Below are positions 2-9,384 of a stretch of 64,000 bases of DNA, in pieces. The notes under the pieces are model-generated. The model saw only the letters and a program-made list of their open reading frames with translations. It was not told the DNA's origin and ran no database searches. This DNA comes from Pseudomonadota bacterium (GTDB taxonomy: Bacteria; Pseudomonadota; Gammaproteobacteria; Pseudomonadales; Azotimanducaceae): assembly GCA_022571415.1 (NCBI GenBank), contig JACZXW010000002.1, positions 1-64,000 on the forward strand, written 5' to 3'. The translations under genes and the position numbers were made by a program. Numbering within the stretch: position 1 is the first letter of the stretch; every line of letters begins with the position of its first letter.

Positions 2-1027
2 TATCAGATCAGGGTTTACACCTTGCTCTGGCAAGGTCCGGTACCACCTGGGTTTGAGGTCATCATCGTCCCGGTCACTGCAATTACAAACCATTCCAGA
101 TACCGGCGATTTTCACAGTGGGTGGGTCATCATCTCCTGCTAGAGCCGGTAGACGGTGTCATTGGTTTTAACAAAATGCCCGGTCTCGATGTCTACTACG
201 CGGCGGATTCCTGCTATGAAGACAAGGCACAAACCCAGAGGGGTAGACTGTACCGTTCCATACCCCGCTATAGACACTTTTCTCGATTCGAAAGGGCTGT
301 ATTTGAACCAACAGCTGAAACAGAGATCCTGATGATTTCTGAAGTGCAAAAACCTGTTTTTCTTAAATACTACAATACACCGTTATCCCGTTTTCATCTG
401 TTGCCTCCTGGTATAGGCAGGGACAGAGTGGCACCGGATGACAGTGATGAAATTCGCGCAGGATTGCGCAAGGAATTTGCGATTGCAGAGGACGAAAATC
501 TGTTGCTGATGGTCGGCTCCGGGTTCATCACCAAGGGATTGGATCGAATTCTGCTTGGGATGCATGCGTTACCGGAATCGGTAAAACAGAAAACCAGGCT
601 GATTGCAATAGGTCAGGATGCCCCGGGAACCTTCCAACGCATCGCCACTCGACTCCATCTTAAAAATCACGTTGAAATATTGAGAGGCCGGGATGACATC
701 CCAAGATTCCTGTTGGCTGCGGATTTGCTGGTACATCCGGCCTATGTGGAAAATACAGGTACAGTGATCCTTGAGGCAATCGTCTCAGGCCTGCCTGTTC
801 TGGCGACGGATGTATGTGGTTATGCAAACCATGTTACCGATGCACGGGCCGGGGAGCTGGTTGCGTCGCCGTTTCGGCAAGGTACTTTTAACAAACTGCT
901 TCTCGACATGATAACTTCGGAAAAGAGGGAAGCGTGGAAGAAGAATGGACTCTATTACGCCAGAGTAGCGGACATCTACAGCATGCCGCAGAAAGCAGCA
1001 GATTTTATCTCCTCTAACATAAACTAG
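2..1027 (+). CDS. waaG: LPS core heptose glucosyltransferase WaaG, 5' end outside window
   Basis: Family 4 glycosyltransferase of WaaG/RfaG type, which transfers the first outer-core hexose to heptose II of the LPS inner core at the cytoplasmic face of the inner membrane. The frame is open from base 2, and YQIRVYTLLWQG before the first possible TTG (position 23) matches the WaaG N-terminal Rossmann region, so roughly 30-40 residues lie off the left edge. GSGFITKGLDRILLGM is the WaaG nucleotide-sugar loop, and NTGTVILEAIVSGLPVLATD is the C-terminal E-x7-E motif that binds the donor. The next gene, waaP, begins 41 bp after the stop, as in other waa operons. The family is certain; the exact sugar donor is inferred. 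Confidence 0.93.
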   Translation, partial: YQIRVYTLLWQGPVPPGFEVIIVPVTAITNHSRYRRFSQWVGHHLLLEPVDGVIGFNKMPGLDVYYAADSCYEDKAQTQRGRLYRSIPRYRHFSRFERAVFEPTAETEILMISEVQKPVFLKYYNTPLSRFHLLPPGIGRDRVAPDDSDEIRAGLRKEFAIAEDENLLLMVGSGFITKGLDRILLGMHALPESVKQKTRLIAIGQDAPGTFQRIATRLHLKNHVEILRGRDDIPRFLLAADLLVHPAYVENTGTVILEAIVSGLPVLATDVCGYANHVTDARAGELVASPFRQGTFNKLLLDMITSEKREAWKKNGLYYARVADIYSMPQKAADFISSNIN

Positions 1028-2705: not shown

Positions 2706-4151
2706 ATGAAAACGCTTGATGCCAGTGACCTCATCAATGCAAGGCGTGATGTTCAGGTGCCTTTTCGCCTTCTGGTTAATAAACCTGGTGGGGGTCAGGT
2801 CGCATTATTATTTTTATCCGTTCTGCGGTTGTTGCCGGCCAAAAGAATCGTCGCGCTGGCAGAACATGAAGGACAGCAAGTGCTGGTCAAGACGTTCCTC
2901 GGTAGAACTGCTGACAAGCATGCTTTTCGCGAGCGGACTGGCGTCCTGGCTTTTGCCCAGGCAGACGTCAGTACACCGGACTTGTTATGGGAAGGAGAGA
3001 TTGAAAACGGCCGTCTGCTGGTTTTCCGCTATCTGTCGGGTGCTGTCAGTTTTGCGCAGCAGTGGAATTTATCCCATGATTCCCGAGCACGGATCGAAAT
3101 CCTTGCAGGGGTAATGAAGATTCTGGCGAAACTACATGACCATGGTGTTGTTCAAAATGATATTCACCTGGCCAACTTTCTTCTCAGTGAAGGGAAAATC
3201 AGCACCATTGATGGTGGCGCAGTAGAGCGAAAAGGCGAGGGTCCGCTTCCGGAACGATCCAGTATGAAGAATCTGGCTATGTTTTTTGCGCAATTTTATC
3301 CGCGGTTTGATTTACTGATAGACGATGTGTTCCGCCAGTACGAAGAGTATCGAGGGTGGAGGCCCGATGAAGTCCGATTGCGGCGATTTCGAAGTGAAGT
3401 TTTACGATGCAGGGAAACCCGAAAACGAAACTACATCAGCAAGACATTTCGTGATTGCACCCGGTTTTTATGCTGGTCGAAGTTCACCAGGTTTGAAGTG
3501 TGTGAGAGAGAAGCCTACTGCAATGAACTTGCAGAAATCATGGAAGATCCCGACAGGTTTATCGAGGCGGGCCTGATGTTAAAGGATGGCAATTCTTCAA
3601 CAGTAGCGCTTATACGACTGGTCGATCGTACCCTGGTGATAAAGAGATACAACATTAAAAGTCCCTGGCATGGTCTGCGGCGGGCGTTCCGAAAAAGCCG
3701 CGCCTGGCAATCCTGGAGCAATGCGCACCGTATGGAATTCCTCGGTATTCCGGCGCTGAAGCCAGTCGCCATGATTGAGAACCGGATGGGACCGATAAGG
3801 ACGACGGCGTACCTGATCACGGAATTTATCGAAGGCCCTGACGCATTGGAAAGTTTGCTGGCTGATCCAAATGGCGATTTGGAAGCCATTACCCGTATTC
3901 TTCAGGATTTATCAGATGTACAGATTTCCCATGGCGATTTGAAGGCGACGAATTTTGTCATGACGGATGAGGGGCCGGTCATGGTGGACCTGGATGGTAT
4001 GAAGGAACACAGAAGCCGGCAGAGTTTTGAGCAGGCGTTTAGCCGCGACCTTGAGCGATTCATGGAAAACTGGCAGGACAGTCCCCAACTTAAATCCAGA
4101 TTTTCCGGTCTGCTCCGGGATTTGTCTTCACAGTATGGGTTAAGTCTTTAA
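2706..4151 (+). CDS. tandem protein with two kinase-like (LPS kinase family) domains
   Basis: Protein of 481 aa with two kinase-like folds in series. N-terminal copy, about 1-235: Lys62 in VLVKTF, VVQNDIHLANFLL with Asp152 and Asn157, and Asp169 in STIDGG. C-terminal copy, about 265-481: Lys313 in LVIKRYN, ISHGDLKATNFVM with Asp411 and Asn416, and Asp428/Asp430 in MVDLDGM. Both copies keep the ATP- and metal-binding residues, so neither is plainly dead. The gene lies 43 bp after the InaA-like kinase on the same strand and is probably the last gene of the waaG operon, since a terminator-like hairpin follows at 4293. Two-domain kinases occur at this place in Pseudomonas LPS loci (memory). Substrates are unknown. 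Confidence 0.82.
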   Translation: MKTLDASDLINARRDVQVPFRLLVNKPGGGQVALLFLSVLRLLPAKRIVALAEHEGQQVLVKTFLGRTADKHAFRERTGVLAFAQADVSTPDLLWEGEIENGRLLVFRYLSGAVSFAQQWNLSHDSRARIEILAGVMKILAKLHDHGVVQNDIHLANFLLSEGKISTIDGGAVERKGEGPLPERSSMKNLAMFFAQFYPRFDLLIDDVFRQYEEYRGWRPDEVRLRRFRSEVLRCRETRKRNYISKTFRDCTRFLCWSKFTRFEVCEREAYCNELAEIMEDPDRFIEAGLMLKDGNSSTVALIRLVDRTLVIKRYNIKSPWHGLRRAFRKSRAWQSWSNAHRMEFLGIPALKPVAMIENRMGPIRTTAYLITEFIEGPDALESLLADPNGDLEAITRILQDLSDVQISHGDLKATNFVMTDEGPVMVDLDGMKEHRSRQSFEQAFSRDLERFMENWQDSPQLKSRFSGLLRDLSSQYGLSL

Positions 4152-4360
4152 CGCGTGTCGGATAGAGTTTGAGCGTCCTCGAGGAAAGTTGCCGCCGGGG
4201 AGGAATCGCTATTGTTGAGTTGACCCCGGGGGTCGTCCTGGGACAACTTGTATTCTGACCAAGCGGGTGCTGTTTTTGTTGGTTGGGTTGACAGCCGGGT
4301 GTGAACCCGGTTTTGCAGGTATTATGGGATTTTGCAATACTTCGCCCTGAGGAGGGGACC
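4152..4360 (+). other. structured intergenic region after the LPS kinase operon
   Basis: This 209-bp stretch carries no convincing ORF. It contains an imperfect stem at 4218-4226/4240-4248 (one A-A mismatch) and, overlapping its left arm, a near-palindrome GACCCC-G-GGGGTC at 4222-4234, so the two folds exclude each other. A GC-rich hairpin followed by four T lies at 4293-4314. The simplest reading is the end of the LPS kinase transcript. A leader with alternative structures for the DUF4242 gene at 4361 is possible but unproven. Confidence 0.5.
4293..4314 (+). terminator. probable rho-independent terminator
   Basis: Stem CCGGGT-GTGA-ACCCGG (4295-4310) is extended by A-T and G-T pairs outside and followed by TTTT. 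It lies 140 bp after the tandem kinase and 46 bp before the DUF4242 start, so it could end the LPS kinase operon. The T-run is short. Confidence 0.5.
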
Positions 4361-4636
4361 ATGAAGAAATACCTTATCGAAAGAGCCTTACCAGGCTTTG
4401 AAAACTCGAGTGCGGATGAATTCCGGGCAGCCGCGAAGACTTCGAATGCTGTGTTGCAAGAGTTGGGGCCCGACATTCAGTGGATTGAGTCCTATGTTGT
4501 CAATGACATGACGCTCTGCGTCTATATGGCCAGGGACGAGGACATCATAAGGGAACATGCGCAAAAGAGTGGATTCCCGATCACCCGTATTACAGAAGTA
4601 AAAACCATGATCGGGCCCAGTACGGCCGAATCTTAG
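4361..4636 (+). CDS. DUF4242 family small protein
   Basis: Protein of 91 aa starting at the ATG at 4361, chosen because a near-perfect Shine-Dalgarno (GAGGAGGGG) sits just upstream; the frame continues upstream to 4301 without coding character. MKKYLIERALPG, then the S(N)AVLQELGPDIQWIESYVV and KTMIGPST elements, are the pattern of DUF4242 (ferredoxin-like alpha/beta, one domain). Some relatives, such as Streptomyces SCO4226, are described as nickel binding, but that cannot be read from this sequence. No signal peptide or membrane segment. It precedes the TIR gene by 114 bp on the same strand. Function unknown. Confidence 0.72.
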   Translation: MKKYLIERALPGFENSSADEFRAAAKTSNAVLQELGPDIQWIESYVVNDMTLCVYMARDEDIIREHAQKSGFPITRITEVKTMIGPSTAES

Positions 4637-4750
4637 TTTCATAAACTAGCGTTAGACACACTACTGTCCCTGGAGGTAGTTTCTTGACGATGGACCGCGG
4701 TTTGCAGAATCAGTGGATGGCCGCATTTACCCGGGTCTCGAGGAGCGCCA

Positions 4751-6376
4751 GTGGCTGATATTTTTTTCAGTTATGCAAGCAAGGACCGGGACCGGATTGC
4801 CCCGCTTGTTGAGACCTTCAAGGCACAGGGCTGGTCCGTATGGTGGGACCAGCATATTGTCCCCGGGAGCAGCTTCGACGACATGATTGAGCAGGCGATT
4901 GCAGAGGCAGCTTGCGTCGTCGTCGCCTGGACCAAAACATCTGTCAATGCAGACTGGGTCCGGCGGGAAGCTCTTTTTGGTCTCGAGAAGGACATCCTCA
5001 TTCCCGTTCTTCTGGACGACATTGAATTACCCTTCGCCTTTCGCCGCACACAAGCGGCAAAGCTCATCGGTTGGCCGCAACAAGAACAGACCAATGGTGA
5101 TCTGGAACGCCTCCTTCAAGGTATCCGGCAAACACTCGGGTCGATCCGGGAGGTCAAGGAGGAGCTTGTCCCAAGGGGGGATGAGCGCCCCTCCATCGCG
5201 GTTCTTCCCCTGGATGATCTGACCAACGATACCACGCTGTTAGGTCTTGCGGACGGTATGACGGAAGACATCATTACTCATCTTGCGCAGAACCCGACCT
5301 TTTTTGTGGCTGCCAGAAACTCAAGCTACCAGTTCAAAGGAGGCGCATCTGATGTACGCGAAGTAGGCCGCGCCCTGACCGTGCGCTATGTGTTGGAAGG
5401 CAGCGTCAGGAAGGTGGGCAATAATCTCAGAGTGGTTGCACAGCTCATTGAAGTGGAGACAGGCGGCCATATCTGGACGGACATCTTCAATGAATCCGTT
5501 GAGGATATTGGTGCGGCACAGGATATTCTCACGGAGAAGATCAGTAATGCGGTTGCTTCTGCTGCGGGCAACGATAATTTCCAGCGCATCCTGCGTACCC
5601 CTCGGGAAGAACTTGGTCCTTGGGGCTTGCTGGCGCTTGCTGCGGCGAGTCCAGTGAATAACCGGGAAGGTCGGGAGCGACGGCAAACCTTGATTCGAAG
5701 TGCCATCGCGCTTGATCCCTCATCGGGTGTCGCGCATGTGCGCCTTGCTGACGTACTCGCGCAGGACGTCGTAGCAGATCTCAGTGAAGATCCTGACGCT
5801 GATCGCAAGCTGTCACTTAGCGAAATCGAATCCGCCCTGAGGCTCGCACCTGGAAACGCTGCCGTACTTGCTATTGCCGCGACCGCCTATATGAACCTCG
5901 GTGAAAAGCGTCGTTCTATTTCACTAGCGCGAAGAACCCTCGTTCTGGCACCTATTCCACCTTCACATATGACCCTGGCAAATGTCCTTCTTCGCGCCGA
6001 TGAAGCAGAAGAAGCCAAGTCCATTTTCGAAGCGCTGGCAGAAAAGGCACCTAAAGGACTAGGTCTCAATCACAGGGGTCTCACGATTGCCTGTTGTATT
6101 CTCGGCGATTATGAAAGGGCGCTTTCCCATGCGGAAGAGTGGGAGCTCTGGTCTCCAGGCGAATATAGTGCCTGTCTGATTCAGGCCAACCTGCTTTCCG
6201 CTCTTGGAGAGAATGACGCAGCACTGGTGGCCATCGAGAAATTACGGGAGAAGGTACCCAGATTTCGTCTGGAAGAAGGGATCGAGTCCCTTGAAAAAGG
6301 TAACACCGGAACGGCGAGAGAACGGCTCACAGGGGGATTGAAAATAATGCTGGAAAGAGAGCGCTCTACCGATTGA
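4751..6376 (+). CDS. TIR domain - TolB-like domain - TPR protein
   Basis: Protein of 541 aa with a GTG start (AGGAG six bases upstream). Residues 1-112 form a TIR domain: ADIFFSYASKDRDR, WWDQHIVPG, and WVRREA at 69-74. Glu73 falls where the catalytic Glu of NAD-cleaving TIR domains sits (WxxxE). Residues 147-267 (PSIAVLPLDDLTND, GLADGMTEDIITHLA, RYVLEGSVRKVGNNLRVVAQL, GGHIWTDIF) form the TolB-like module often fused to class III adenylate cyclases. Residues about 290-530 are TPR-like helical repeats. No cyclase catalytic domain is present, although homologous architectures are often labelled adenylate cyclase. No signal peptide or transmembrane segment, so it is probably cytoplasmic. It sits between a DUF4242 gene and an EamA gene inside an LPS locus. 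Signalling or a TIR NADase role is inference only. Confidence 0.82.
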   Translation: MADIFFSYASKDRDRIAPLVETFKAQGWSVWWDQHIVPGSSFDDMIEQAIAEAACVVVAWTKTSVNADWVRREALFGLEKDILIPVLLDDIELPFAFRRTQAAKLIGWPQQEQTNGDLERLLQGIRQTLGSIREVKEELVPRGDERPSIAVLPLDDLTNDTTLLGLADGMTEDIITHLAQNPTFFVAARNSSYQFKGGASDVREVGRALTVRYVLEGSVRKVGNNLRVVAQLIEVETGGHIWTDIFNESVEDIGAAQDILTEKISNAVASAAGNDNFQRILRTPREELGPWGLLALAAASPVNNREGRERRQTLIRSAIALDPSSGVAHVRLADVLAQDVVADLSEDPDADRKLSLSEIESALRLAPGNAAVLAIAATAYMNLGEKRRSISLARRTLVLAPIPPSHMTLANVLLRADEAEEAKSIFEALAEKAPKGLGLNHRGLTIACCILGDYERALSHAEEWELWSPGEYSACLIQANLLSALGENDAALVAIEKLREKVPRFRLEEGIESLEKGNTGTARERLTGGLKIMLERERSTD

Positions 6377-6499
6377 TCAGAGGCTCCCAAGACTTCCGGG
6401 GCAGCTTCAGATGCATGACGCCATTGCCGATTAACCTTGATGCGTCCGTTCAAGCGCCTTTCTTTCCTTGCGGCTGAGTTATCTTGAGGTGCTGGGGTC

Positions 6500-7390
6500 A
6501 TGTCCGAAATAAAAATACAAACGATCGCGCGCACTGTGTCATTGACGGCTGTTGCCATGCTGGCCTTTGCTGCCAACTCTTTGCTGTGCCGGTTGGCTTT
6601 AGCGCAGGGGCTGATTGATGCGGCGACCTTTACCTCTGTCAGGATCATCGCCGGGGCGGTAACGCTGGGTTTGATGGTGTTATTTCGGACAGGGCCGAGG
6701 AAGCGTCAGCGGACCCGCTGGCGTAGCGTGGCGATGCTTTTTACTTACATGGCGACCTTTTCTTTCGCCTATCTTTCCCTCAGCGCTGGCACCGGCGCAT
6801 TGCTGCTCTTTGGCTCAGTACAGCTCACAATGTTTGCGGTCGCGCTGCGTGAAGGAGAACGATTCCCGCTGCCTTCATGGGGAGGATTTTCTCTGGCGAT
6901 TTTTGGATTGATCTATCTGGTACTACCGGGTGTAGCCGCGCCCGATCCACTCGGCGCAGTCCTCATGACTGTGGCAGGCGTCGCCTGGGGATTTTATTCG
7001 TTGCTGGGCAGGGACGTTGTGGACTCCCTTGAGGCGACGGCCAGAAACTTCATCTACTCAGTGCCCCTTGTACTCCTTGTCAGTCTTTTCTTTTTGCCAA
7101 TATTTAATGCCTCGACCAGTGGCCTGGCTCTCGCAATCACGTCAGGCGCACTCACCTCCGGTTGTGGCTATGTTATCTGGTATGCGGCGCTCCCAGGACT
7201 GACGGCGATGCGAGCGGCGACCGTCCAGCTCTCAGTACCGCTGATTGCGGCTTTCGGGGGCGTCTTCTTGCTGTCAGAGCTGATCACTTTGCGTCTGTTG
7301 CTGGCGTCTGCCGCAACGCTGGGAGGTGTCGCAATCGTACTGGCGCAGCGTGCGGAAATTGCAACGGGCGCTGGAAGACAGCCCCGATAG
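6500..7390 (+). CDS. EamA/DMT family transporter
   Basis: Protein of 296 aa made of about ten hydrophobic helices in two EamA repeats, for example LTAVAMLAFAANSLLCRLA at the N-terminus and PLIAAFGGVFLLSELITLRL in the second repeat. It is an inner-membrane drug/metabolite exporter-type permease; the substrate cannot be told. The N-terminal AxxFxxNSLLCRLAL and the C-terminal E in LLSELITL are standard for the family. ATG at 6500. It lies 123 bp after the TIR gene on the same strand and may have its own promoter. Confidence 0.88.
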   Translation: MSEIKIQTIARTVSLTAVAMLAFAANSLLCRLALAQGLIDAATFTSVRIIAGAVTLGLMVLFRTGPRKRQRTRWRSVAMLFTYMATFSFAYLSLSAGTGALLLFGSVQLTMFAVALREGERFPLPSWGGFSLAIFGLIYLVLPGVAAPDPLGAVLMTVAGVAWGFYSLLGRDVVDSLEATARNFIYSVPLVLLVSLFFLPIFNASTSGLALAITSGALTSGCGYVIWYAALPGLTAMRAATVQLSVPLIAAFGGVFLLSELITLRLLLASAATLGGVAIVLAQRAEIATGAGRQPR

Positions 7391-7647
7391 ATCCTGATTC
7401 CGGGTCTGGATAGACCCTAATAAGAGGACCCTTGGAGCTTGTCAAACATGGGTTCCGCTTGATTCAACGCTTTTAGAAATCCGGAGTTGAGCAATGACTG
7501 AAGGTAACTTGCGATAGTGATGAAGTATCGCGTGGTGGCTGCGAAAGTTTCCTTTATCCCTATTATTTCCAGTCCTATAGAATTTTCAGAAGGGGAGCTT
7601 TCATTCGGTTAGAATACGCAACTTTGTAGTTTTATAGAGTTGTTCAC
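7391..7647. other. 257-bp intergenic region without a gene
   Basis: Between the EamA gene and the carbamoyltransferase gene. I see no ORF with coding character. AT-rich stretches near 7565-7640 (TAGAAT at 7610-7615) could be a promoter for the carbamoyltransferase gene, but no matching -35 is evident. Confidence 0.4.
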
Positions 7648-9384
7648 TTGTCTTTAAAAATACTTGGCTTGTCGGGTGCATTGACCCACGACCCATCTGC
7701 GGCGATATATATTGATGGAAAACTGGTTGCGGCAGCCGAGGAAGAACGGTTTACCCGCGATAAGCATGCGAAAAACAAAATGCCCTTTGAGGCTGCAAAA
7801 TTCTGTCTGCAATATGCAGGCCTGAAACCGAATGATATCGATGTTGTTGCCTTTCCTTTCGCCAAAGTCAGCCTTCTCTCCGGTGCACGTTGGCACTATG
7901 CGAGGCGTTACTGGTATGCGCCAGAGAGATCGCTGGATGCAATTTTCAACGGCAATCGCCACTACCGCAGAAACGTAAGGAGAGTGCGCAAGCTCCTTGA
8001 TGACCTGGGCATTAACTGGGATAACATTGAATTTGATGCAGTTGAGCATCACCTGGCACACGCCAGCAGTGCCTATCATTTGAGTGGCTTCAAGGAAAAA
8101 ACGGCGATACTCGGCATAGATGGTAAAGGCGAATATGTCACGACCTTTTTTGGATACGGCGAAAATGGGGAAATTCATAAAATAAAGGAATTTTATGACC
8201 CCGATTCCCTGGGGCAGTTATATGCATCGGTGACCGAATACCTGGGATTTGAAATGCTCGACGGTGAATACAAGGTAATGGGGATGGCGCCCTATGGGGA
8301 TCCAAATCTGTACGATTTGTCCCGCCTGATTGAATTCGATGGCAAAAACATCAAGGTCAACACTGAACTTGTCAATACAGTTGGCCTTCGACGATACAAG
8401 GAAGGCCGTAAGGGATTCTTTTTCAGCCAGAAGCTGATCGATTGGCTTGGTCCCAGGCGTAAAGGTGATATCGCAGATGATCCTTATATTCATTACGCGG
8501 CTTCAATCCAGAAGTTATATGAAGATATTTCATTGCAACTTATCGACACCTATCTGGGGGACATACTGAAGGAAACCGGCAAACTGGTATTTGCCGGTGG
8601 CGGGGCGCTCAACGTCAAACTCAATCAGAAGATCCTGGAGCTGCCTTATGTGAAGGAACTCTTCGTCCAACCCGCCGCAAGTGATGCTGGTACTGCTGTT
8701 GGCGCTGCAGCTTATGCAAGCTGGAAGCGATCAGTCCCGCCTGAAACAATGAAACACGTTTATCTCGGACCGCGGTACACGACTGAGGAATGTATAGATG
8801 CGTGCAAGTCGCATCAGGAAAAGCCGGTTTTTGAAAGAATTGATGATGTTCCCGGTAGAGCCGCGCAGATACTGGCTGATGGAGATCCTCTCGCCTGGTG
8901 TCAGGGTCGGATGGAGTTTGGGCCCCGGGCGCTTGGCGGCAGGAGCATCCTGGGTTGTCCGAGTCACAAAGGCATCGCGGACAAGATCAATGAGCAGATC
9001 AAATTTCGTGAACGCTGGCGGCCATTTTGTCCGAGCATTCTAGATACGATTGCAGCGGATGTGATCGGTACTGACCATGCGGCTCCCTATATGACCATTA
9101 CATTTAATGTCTCTGCAGAGTGGAAACAACGAATTCCTGAGGTCATTCATGAAGATGGAACTTCACGGGTACAGATAGTCAGCGAAGAAACGAATCCAAG
9201 GTACTATACTTTACTCAAAGAAATGGAGAGGCTGACGGGGAACGGGGTGGTACTGAATACGTCGATGAATCGCCGCGGTGAACCCATGGTATGTTCGCCA
9301 ACGGATGCGCTCAATATGTTCTTTGGATCCGACCTCCAATTTCTGATGCTTGAAGACCTGTTGGTGACGAAGCAGGCCACCTGA
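7648..9384 (+). CDS. carbamoyltransferase (NodU/CmcH family), LPS core
   Basis: Protein of 578 aa. The start is TTG at 7648: an in-frame stop lies at 7627-7629 and no other start codon lies between. The N-terminal half is a Kae1-like adenylation/carbamoyl domain with the metal-binding motif HHLAHASSAYHLSGF; the C-terminal half carries MEFGPRALGGRSILG and RERWRPFCPSIL, both diagnostic of NodU/CmcH carbamoyltransferases. These enzymes use carbamoyl phosphate and ATP to O-carbamoylate sugars. In Pseudomonas a similar gene (PA5005, memory) sits between the core kinases and a core glycosyltransferase and is linked to carbamoylated core heptose. The same neighbours flank it here, so a core-sugar substrate is likely. 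Confidence 0.92.
   Translation: MSLKILGLSGALTHDPSAAIYIDGKLVAAAEEERFTRDKHAKNKMPFEAAKFCLQYAGLKPNDIDVVAFPFAKVSLLSGARWHYARRYWYAPERSLDAIFNGNRHYRRNVRRVRKLLDDLGINWDNIEFDAVEHHLAHASSAYHLSGFKEKTAILGIDGKGEYVTTFFGYGENGEIHKIKEFYDPDSLGQLYASVTEYLGFEMLDGEYKVMGMAPYGDPNLYDLSRLIEFDGKNIKVNTELVNTVGLRRYKEGRKGFFFSQKLIDWLGPRRKGDIADDPYIHYAASIQKLYEDISLQLIDTYLGDILKETGKLVFAGGGALNVKLNQKILELPYVKELFVQPAASDAGTAVGAAAYASWKRSVPPETMKHVYLGPRYTTEECIDACKSHQEKPVFERIDDVPGRAAQILADGDPLAWCQGRMEFGPRALGGRSILGCPSHKGIADKINEQIKFRERWRPFCPSILDTIAADVIGTDHAAPYMTITFNVSAEWKQRIPEVIHEDGTSRVQIVSEETNPRYYTLLKEMERLTGNGVVLNTSMNRRGEPMVCSPTDALNMFFGSDLQFLMLEDLLVTKQAT

Follow-up and report, generated by a model that had tools for sequence, protein, structure and literature searches.

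The window, i.e., the whole stretch of 64,000 nucleotides that was analysed, carries a block of three genes inserted between two genes of the lipopolysaccharide (LPS) core locus. The genes encode a DUF4242 protein, a TIR - TolB-like - TPR protein and an exporter of the EamA family. The explanation that we prefer, with slightly less than even confidence, is that the three genes form a small and transferable cassette for signalling, with a probably cytosolic TIR enzyme and a DUF4242 partner, which was inserted among the LPS genes by chance. Many TIR and TolB-like/TPR proteins are encoded in genomes of the family (Azotimanducaceae). DUF4242 repeatedly occurs with TIR, cyclase and STAND/TolB regulators, and even fused to a cyclase, which provides a concrete two-protein hypothesis.

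The original prediction described about 3.5 kb with a TIR protein of 541 aa, a DUF4242 protein and an exporter between the kinase and carbamoyltransferase genes. The open reading frames and their domains agree with this description (Table 1), and the two LPS genes are separated by 3,496 bases. The dN/dS ratio in pairs of cassette orthologues is 0.12-0.22 for the TIR gene, 0.06-0.12 for the DUF4242 gene (one pair saturated) and 0.13-0.20 for the EamA gene, i.e., purifying selection acts on each of the three. Internal stops are absent from the TIR and DUF4242 orthologues. The three open reading frames are thus real genes, judging by their domain content and by a conservation in which synonymous changes exceed replacement changes. 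Promoter-like sites show no excess over shuffled sequence, and no tRNA gene lies near the cassette (the single tRNA of the window is located elsewhere).

Table 1. Features of the window locus and DUF4242-cyclase fusions in other loci
Feature	Position	Strand	Details
Two-domain LPS kinase, left flank, outside cassette	2706-4151	+	Kdo/WaaP-type, PF06293
Inserted segment	4155-7581	n/a	blastn homology break vs same-genus relatives
DUF4242 / SCO4226-like protein, 91 aa, cassette gene 1	4361-4636	+	PF14026, E 2.6e-22
TIR - TolB-like - TPR protein, 541 aa	4751-6376	+	GTG start; PF13676 TIR_2, E 2.1e-21, and TPR families
Parts of the 541-aa protein	residues 4-111; about 145-270; about 285-540		TIR (with Glu73); TolB-like; TPR
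EamA-family (DMT) exporter, 296 aa, cassette gene 3	6500-7390	+	PF00892, E 1.7e-15
Carbamoyltransferase of LPS core locus, right flank, outside cassette	7648-9384	+	PF02543/PF16861
DUF4242-Guanylate_cyc fusion	L165 4414-5232	-	
DUF4242-Guanylate_cyc fusion	L166 4370-5206	-	
DUF4242-Guanylate_cyc fusion	L167 4467-5339	-	
DUF4242-Guanylate_cyc fusion	L169 4885-5874	+	
DUF4242-Guanylate_cyc fusion	L177 332-1183	+	
DUF4242-Guanylate_cyc fusion	L178 5030-5887	+	

According to the original prediction, the kinase gene is followed by the carbamoyltransferase gene in Pseudomonas. The same order holds in 19 relatives, where the two genes lie about 20-210 bp apart on one contig. The cassette is absent from the junction in all 19 and hence is not conserved there; therefore the block in the window is an insertion, as was originally proposed. 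The exceptions to the adjacency of the two genes are the window genome, the same-genus genome G001, which has another gene in the gap, and the rearranged genome G012. DNA homology to same-genus genomes (blastn) ends at position 4154 and restarts at 7582 (G002) or 7602 (G001). The G+C content is 54.8% in the inserted genes versus about 49% on both sides, and the window carbamoyltransferase is 84-91% identical to its same-genus counterparts. A search of the insert's surroundings for the ends of mobile elements or for target repeats gave nothing convincing. The junction is variable within the genus, since the arrangements in three genomes differ: besides G001, different genes follow the kinase in G003, and the kinases do not adjoin the carbamoyltransferase in G002. 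The gene at the G001 junction (L093, 751-2304, + strand) encodes an unrelated TPR protein of 517 aa with a weak TonB_C match and lies on the opposite strand.

The TIR protein has close orthologues (74-81% identity) in genomes G007, G020 and G071 (locus L091) and in a MAG contig (L090). Together with the window genome, the first three make four cassette carriers among 206 genomes of the family; a further genome of this set, G091, encodes a 40% identical relative of the TIR protein. In G007, G020 and G071 a DUF4242 orthologue of 82-85% identity immediately precedes the TIR gene, and every locus that is long enough to show both genes (four in all) has them together. The L090 contig starts at the TIR gene and was left out of this count. 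The EamA gene follows the TIR gene in four of five loci (the window, G020, L090 and L091; orthologues 76-80% identical). It is absent at the G007 locus, where a divergent MFS transporter gene lies beside DUF4242.

The outer neighbours differ in every orthologous locus. They are a GNAT-type gene (GNAT/GST) and the MFS transporter in G007, a TonB receptor and TolB-like ORFs in G020, a PhyH-like gene and glucose dehydrogenase in G071, and a fumarase gene in L090. LPS genes are found beside none of these four loci. The LPS association is therefore restricted to the window genome, and it is most simply regarded as accidental. Across relatives the block is variable, rare and patchy. The cassette genes have unrelated neighbours in relatives, but their rare and patchy occurrence is not that of single-copy core genes.

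The TIR part matches PF13676 (TIR_2) with 77 bits against a curated cut-off of 28. In HMMER alignments Glu73, the E of the WVRRE motif, aligns with Glu residues of AbTIR and PdTIR that are known to be catalytic in these enzymes. The original assignment of a Glu to the NADase position is thereby upheld. The residue in this column is E in all 23 distinct TIR sequences of the loci examined, so Glu73 is conserved. The best Foldseek matches of the TIR-domain model are PdTIR and AbTIR; the single-domain model is weak (mean pLDDT 60), and for this reason the fold matches support the domain assignment only. A full-length AlphaFold model built from 4-5 sequences is confident for the TPR part alone; the TIR and TolB-like parts are poorly modelled. 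The window protein thus resembles the bacterial TIR NADases AbTIR, PdTIR and BtTir in TIR sequence, in fold and in the Glu at the catalytic position. It differs from them in the fusion of the TIR domain to the TolB-like/TPR half, and its NADase activity is a prediction.

The TolB-like region has no Pfam match above threshold and no sequence relative among solved structures. The label is based on homology to rhizobial cyclases and to a wHTH-TolB-like-TPR protein. Residues 145-515 are homologous to the C-terminal half of rhizobial adenylate/guanylate cyclases (about 33% identity), and the TolB-like/TPR half is 25% identical to the wHTH-TolB-like-TPR protein (E 1e-20); overall, this half is common to the window protein, the rhizobial class III cyclases and the wHTH regulators at 25-34% identity over 270-400 residues. 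The N-terminal domain of the latter two is an output cyclase or a DNA-binding domain, whereas that of the window protein is a TIR domain. These matches support the original view of the TolB-like and TPR parts as a sensor without a cyclase. Proteins with the TIR-AAA_16 (STAND)-TPR(-LuxR) architecture also have a TIR domain N-terminal to a sensor with TPRs and also occur beside DUF4242, but a STAND ATPase replaces the TolB-like domain in them. A literature search (open-licence full text) for TIR combined with TolB-like/TPR domains found nothing.

No transmembrane segment, defined as 19 residues with a mean hydropathy of at least 1.6, was found in the window TIR protein, including the 37-residue linker between the TIR and TolB-like parts. 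The protein is therefore probably cytosolic and unlikely to be a direct envelope sensor.

The window DUF4242 protein matches PF14026 with 79 bits against a cut-off of 28.5. We analysed 71 DUF4242-centred loci of the family and phylum, leaving out the loci with all three genes. TIR, TolB-like or AAA_16 genes number 15 within 1 kb of DUF4242 (140 kb of flank) and 5 in the more distant 615 kb, an enrichment of about 13-fold (binomial p 6.5e-8, an optimistic value because the genomes are related and kinship is ignored). The nearby proteins form about ten clusters below 40% identity. Their architectures include TIR-AAA_16-TPR with and without a LuxR HTH, wHTH-TolB-TPR, BTAD-AAA_16 and SAM-cyclase-AAA_16-TPR. 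In six genomes of the phylum DUF4242 forms the N-terminal part of a fusion with a class III cyclase (Guanylate_cyc) domain, in one protein of 270-330 aa (Table 1), which argues for a direct role of DUF4242 at the output enzyme. In open-licence full text we found no report of DUF4242 with signalling proteins, which is not proof of novelty.

The same Pfam family includes SCO4226, a nickel-binding protein of Streptomyces (PDB 4oi3) that is induced by nickel (PMC4186839). A Cys of SCO4226 has its counterpart in Cys53 of the window protein and is invariant in 18 aligned DUF4242 members. A low-scoring profile alignment places Thr77 of the window protein at His76 of SCO4226, a ligand of Ni-1; because of this substitution nickel binding is not transferable to the window protein. 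A further difference from SCO4226 is the linkage of the window DUF4242 gene with a TIR gene. In view of the repeated association of DUF4242 with signalling regulators, the name "nickel responsive" for the family could be misleading.

According to our preferred explanation of a transferable cassette, its core would be the probably cytosolic TIR protein, with the TolB-like/TPR half as the regulatory part, which in other proteins follows class III cyclase or winged-helix DNA-binding domains. A cue reaching this half would cause the TIR domains to oligomerise, and the oligomerised TIR would use Glu73 to cleave NAD+ or to make a nucleotide signal. DUF4242 would act as a small, dimeric partner passing the cue (a metabolite, a metal or the redox state) on to the TIR protein. 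EamA may export some metabolite that is connected with the response. The lack of EamA at the G007 locus and the frequent location of DUF4242 beside genes of other kinds (listed below) count against this explanation. A wider proposal sees in DUF4242 a subunit specialised in sensing or allosteric control, which serves signalling enzymes (TIR, class III cyclase) as well as STAND/TolB-TPR regulators. The cassette would then be a TIR system that is gated by DUF4242 and equipped with an exporter, i.e., an undescribed TIR pathway. We regard this proposal as possible, although doubtful.

The cassette could instead serve ordinary stress or metabolic regulation, the TIR domain being a mere protein-protein adaptor, DUF4242 a co-regulated stress or metabolic protein and EamA an exporter of some compound. 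Many DUF4242 genes adjoin genes of LysR- or AraC-like regulators (often divergent), GST, OsmC or acyl-CoA dehydrogenase-like proteins, so DUF4242 may be a regulated protein of this kind; the names LysR, AraC, GST and acyl-CoA dehydrogenase-like were assigned by eye from sequence, without a profile search. The induction of SCO4226 by nickel and the exporter gene downstream fit this possibility as well. However, the retention of Glu73 in all 23 distinct TIRs speaks against a mere adaptor, and the idea that DUF4242 is merely a regulated gene is weakened by its fusions to a cyclase domain. On balance, such a purely regulatory cassette seems rather improbable to us.

Anti-phage defence is another possibility: the TIR protein would sense infection through its TolB-like/TPR half and deplete NAD+ or emit a signal, leading to abortive infection, with DUF4242 as a cofactor or regulator. 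The conserved Glu is compatible with this, as are the rarity, patchy distribution, insertion and higher G+C content of the cassette. The TIR part alone is weakly similar to the SAVED_TIR, ThsB and retron-TIR models, but far below the NCBIfam cut-offs, and PADLOC gives partial matches confined to the same part. Neither a full-length match to a protein of the Thoeris, SAVED-TIR or TIR-retron systems nor their partner genes were found. What the window protein shares with Thoeris ThsB and other defence TIRs is thus the TIR domain, and the partner genes of those systems are not near the window cassette. PADLOC detected nothing among ten genes that were checked around the orthologues and at the G001 junction. 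The search in defence collections, proposed at the outset, therefore yielded partial TIR matches but neither complete systems nor neighbouring defence genes. No match was obtained in 50,697 phage records. Among viral contigs a search with the orthologue alignment found no relative, and one with a broader alignment found one 40% identical TIR. Mean pN/pS is similar across the TIR, TolB-like and TPR parts, i.e., there is no fast-evolving sensor. Besides, TolB-TPR halves otherwise bear cyclases or DNA-binding domains, as in ordinary regulation. We consider a defence role possible but unlikely.

The original prediction also tied the TIR protein to envelope genes and supposed that, as a member of the LPS locus, it could report envelope damage or phage adsorption. 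In the window genome, and only there, the cassette is co-directional with LPS genes. The contiguity of the LPS genes in 19 relatives, the location of orthologous cassettes elsewhere and the missing transmembrane segment between the TIR and TolB-like parts contradict such a role and make it highly improbable. Of the original interpretation as a whole, the insertion, the variability, Glu73 and the cyclase-type half stand, and the tie to the envelope does not.

Several loci have tandem DUF4242 genes beside BTAD-AAA_16 or AAA_16 proteins (L138, L140, L143 and L182). One gene family recurs near the tandem genes in L138, L140 and L182, and its member in L138 is OsmC-like. An acyl-CoA dehydrogenase-like gene adjoins DUF4242 in L136 and L179 and is two genes away in L170, with AAA_16 signalling proteins nearby.

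TIR-TolB-TPR proteins form a large paralogous expansion in G006, G008, G029 and other genomes, where the TIR-TolB-TPR query matched at as many as 29 places in one genome (26, 29 and 21 in the three genomes named). Four paralogues (L006, L011, L015 and L024) have a transmembrane segment between the TIR and TolB-like parts. They probably span the membrane, which would make them candidates for envelope sensors whose TIR domain is cytosolic.
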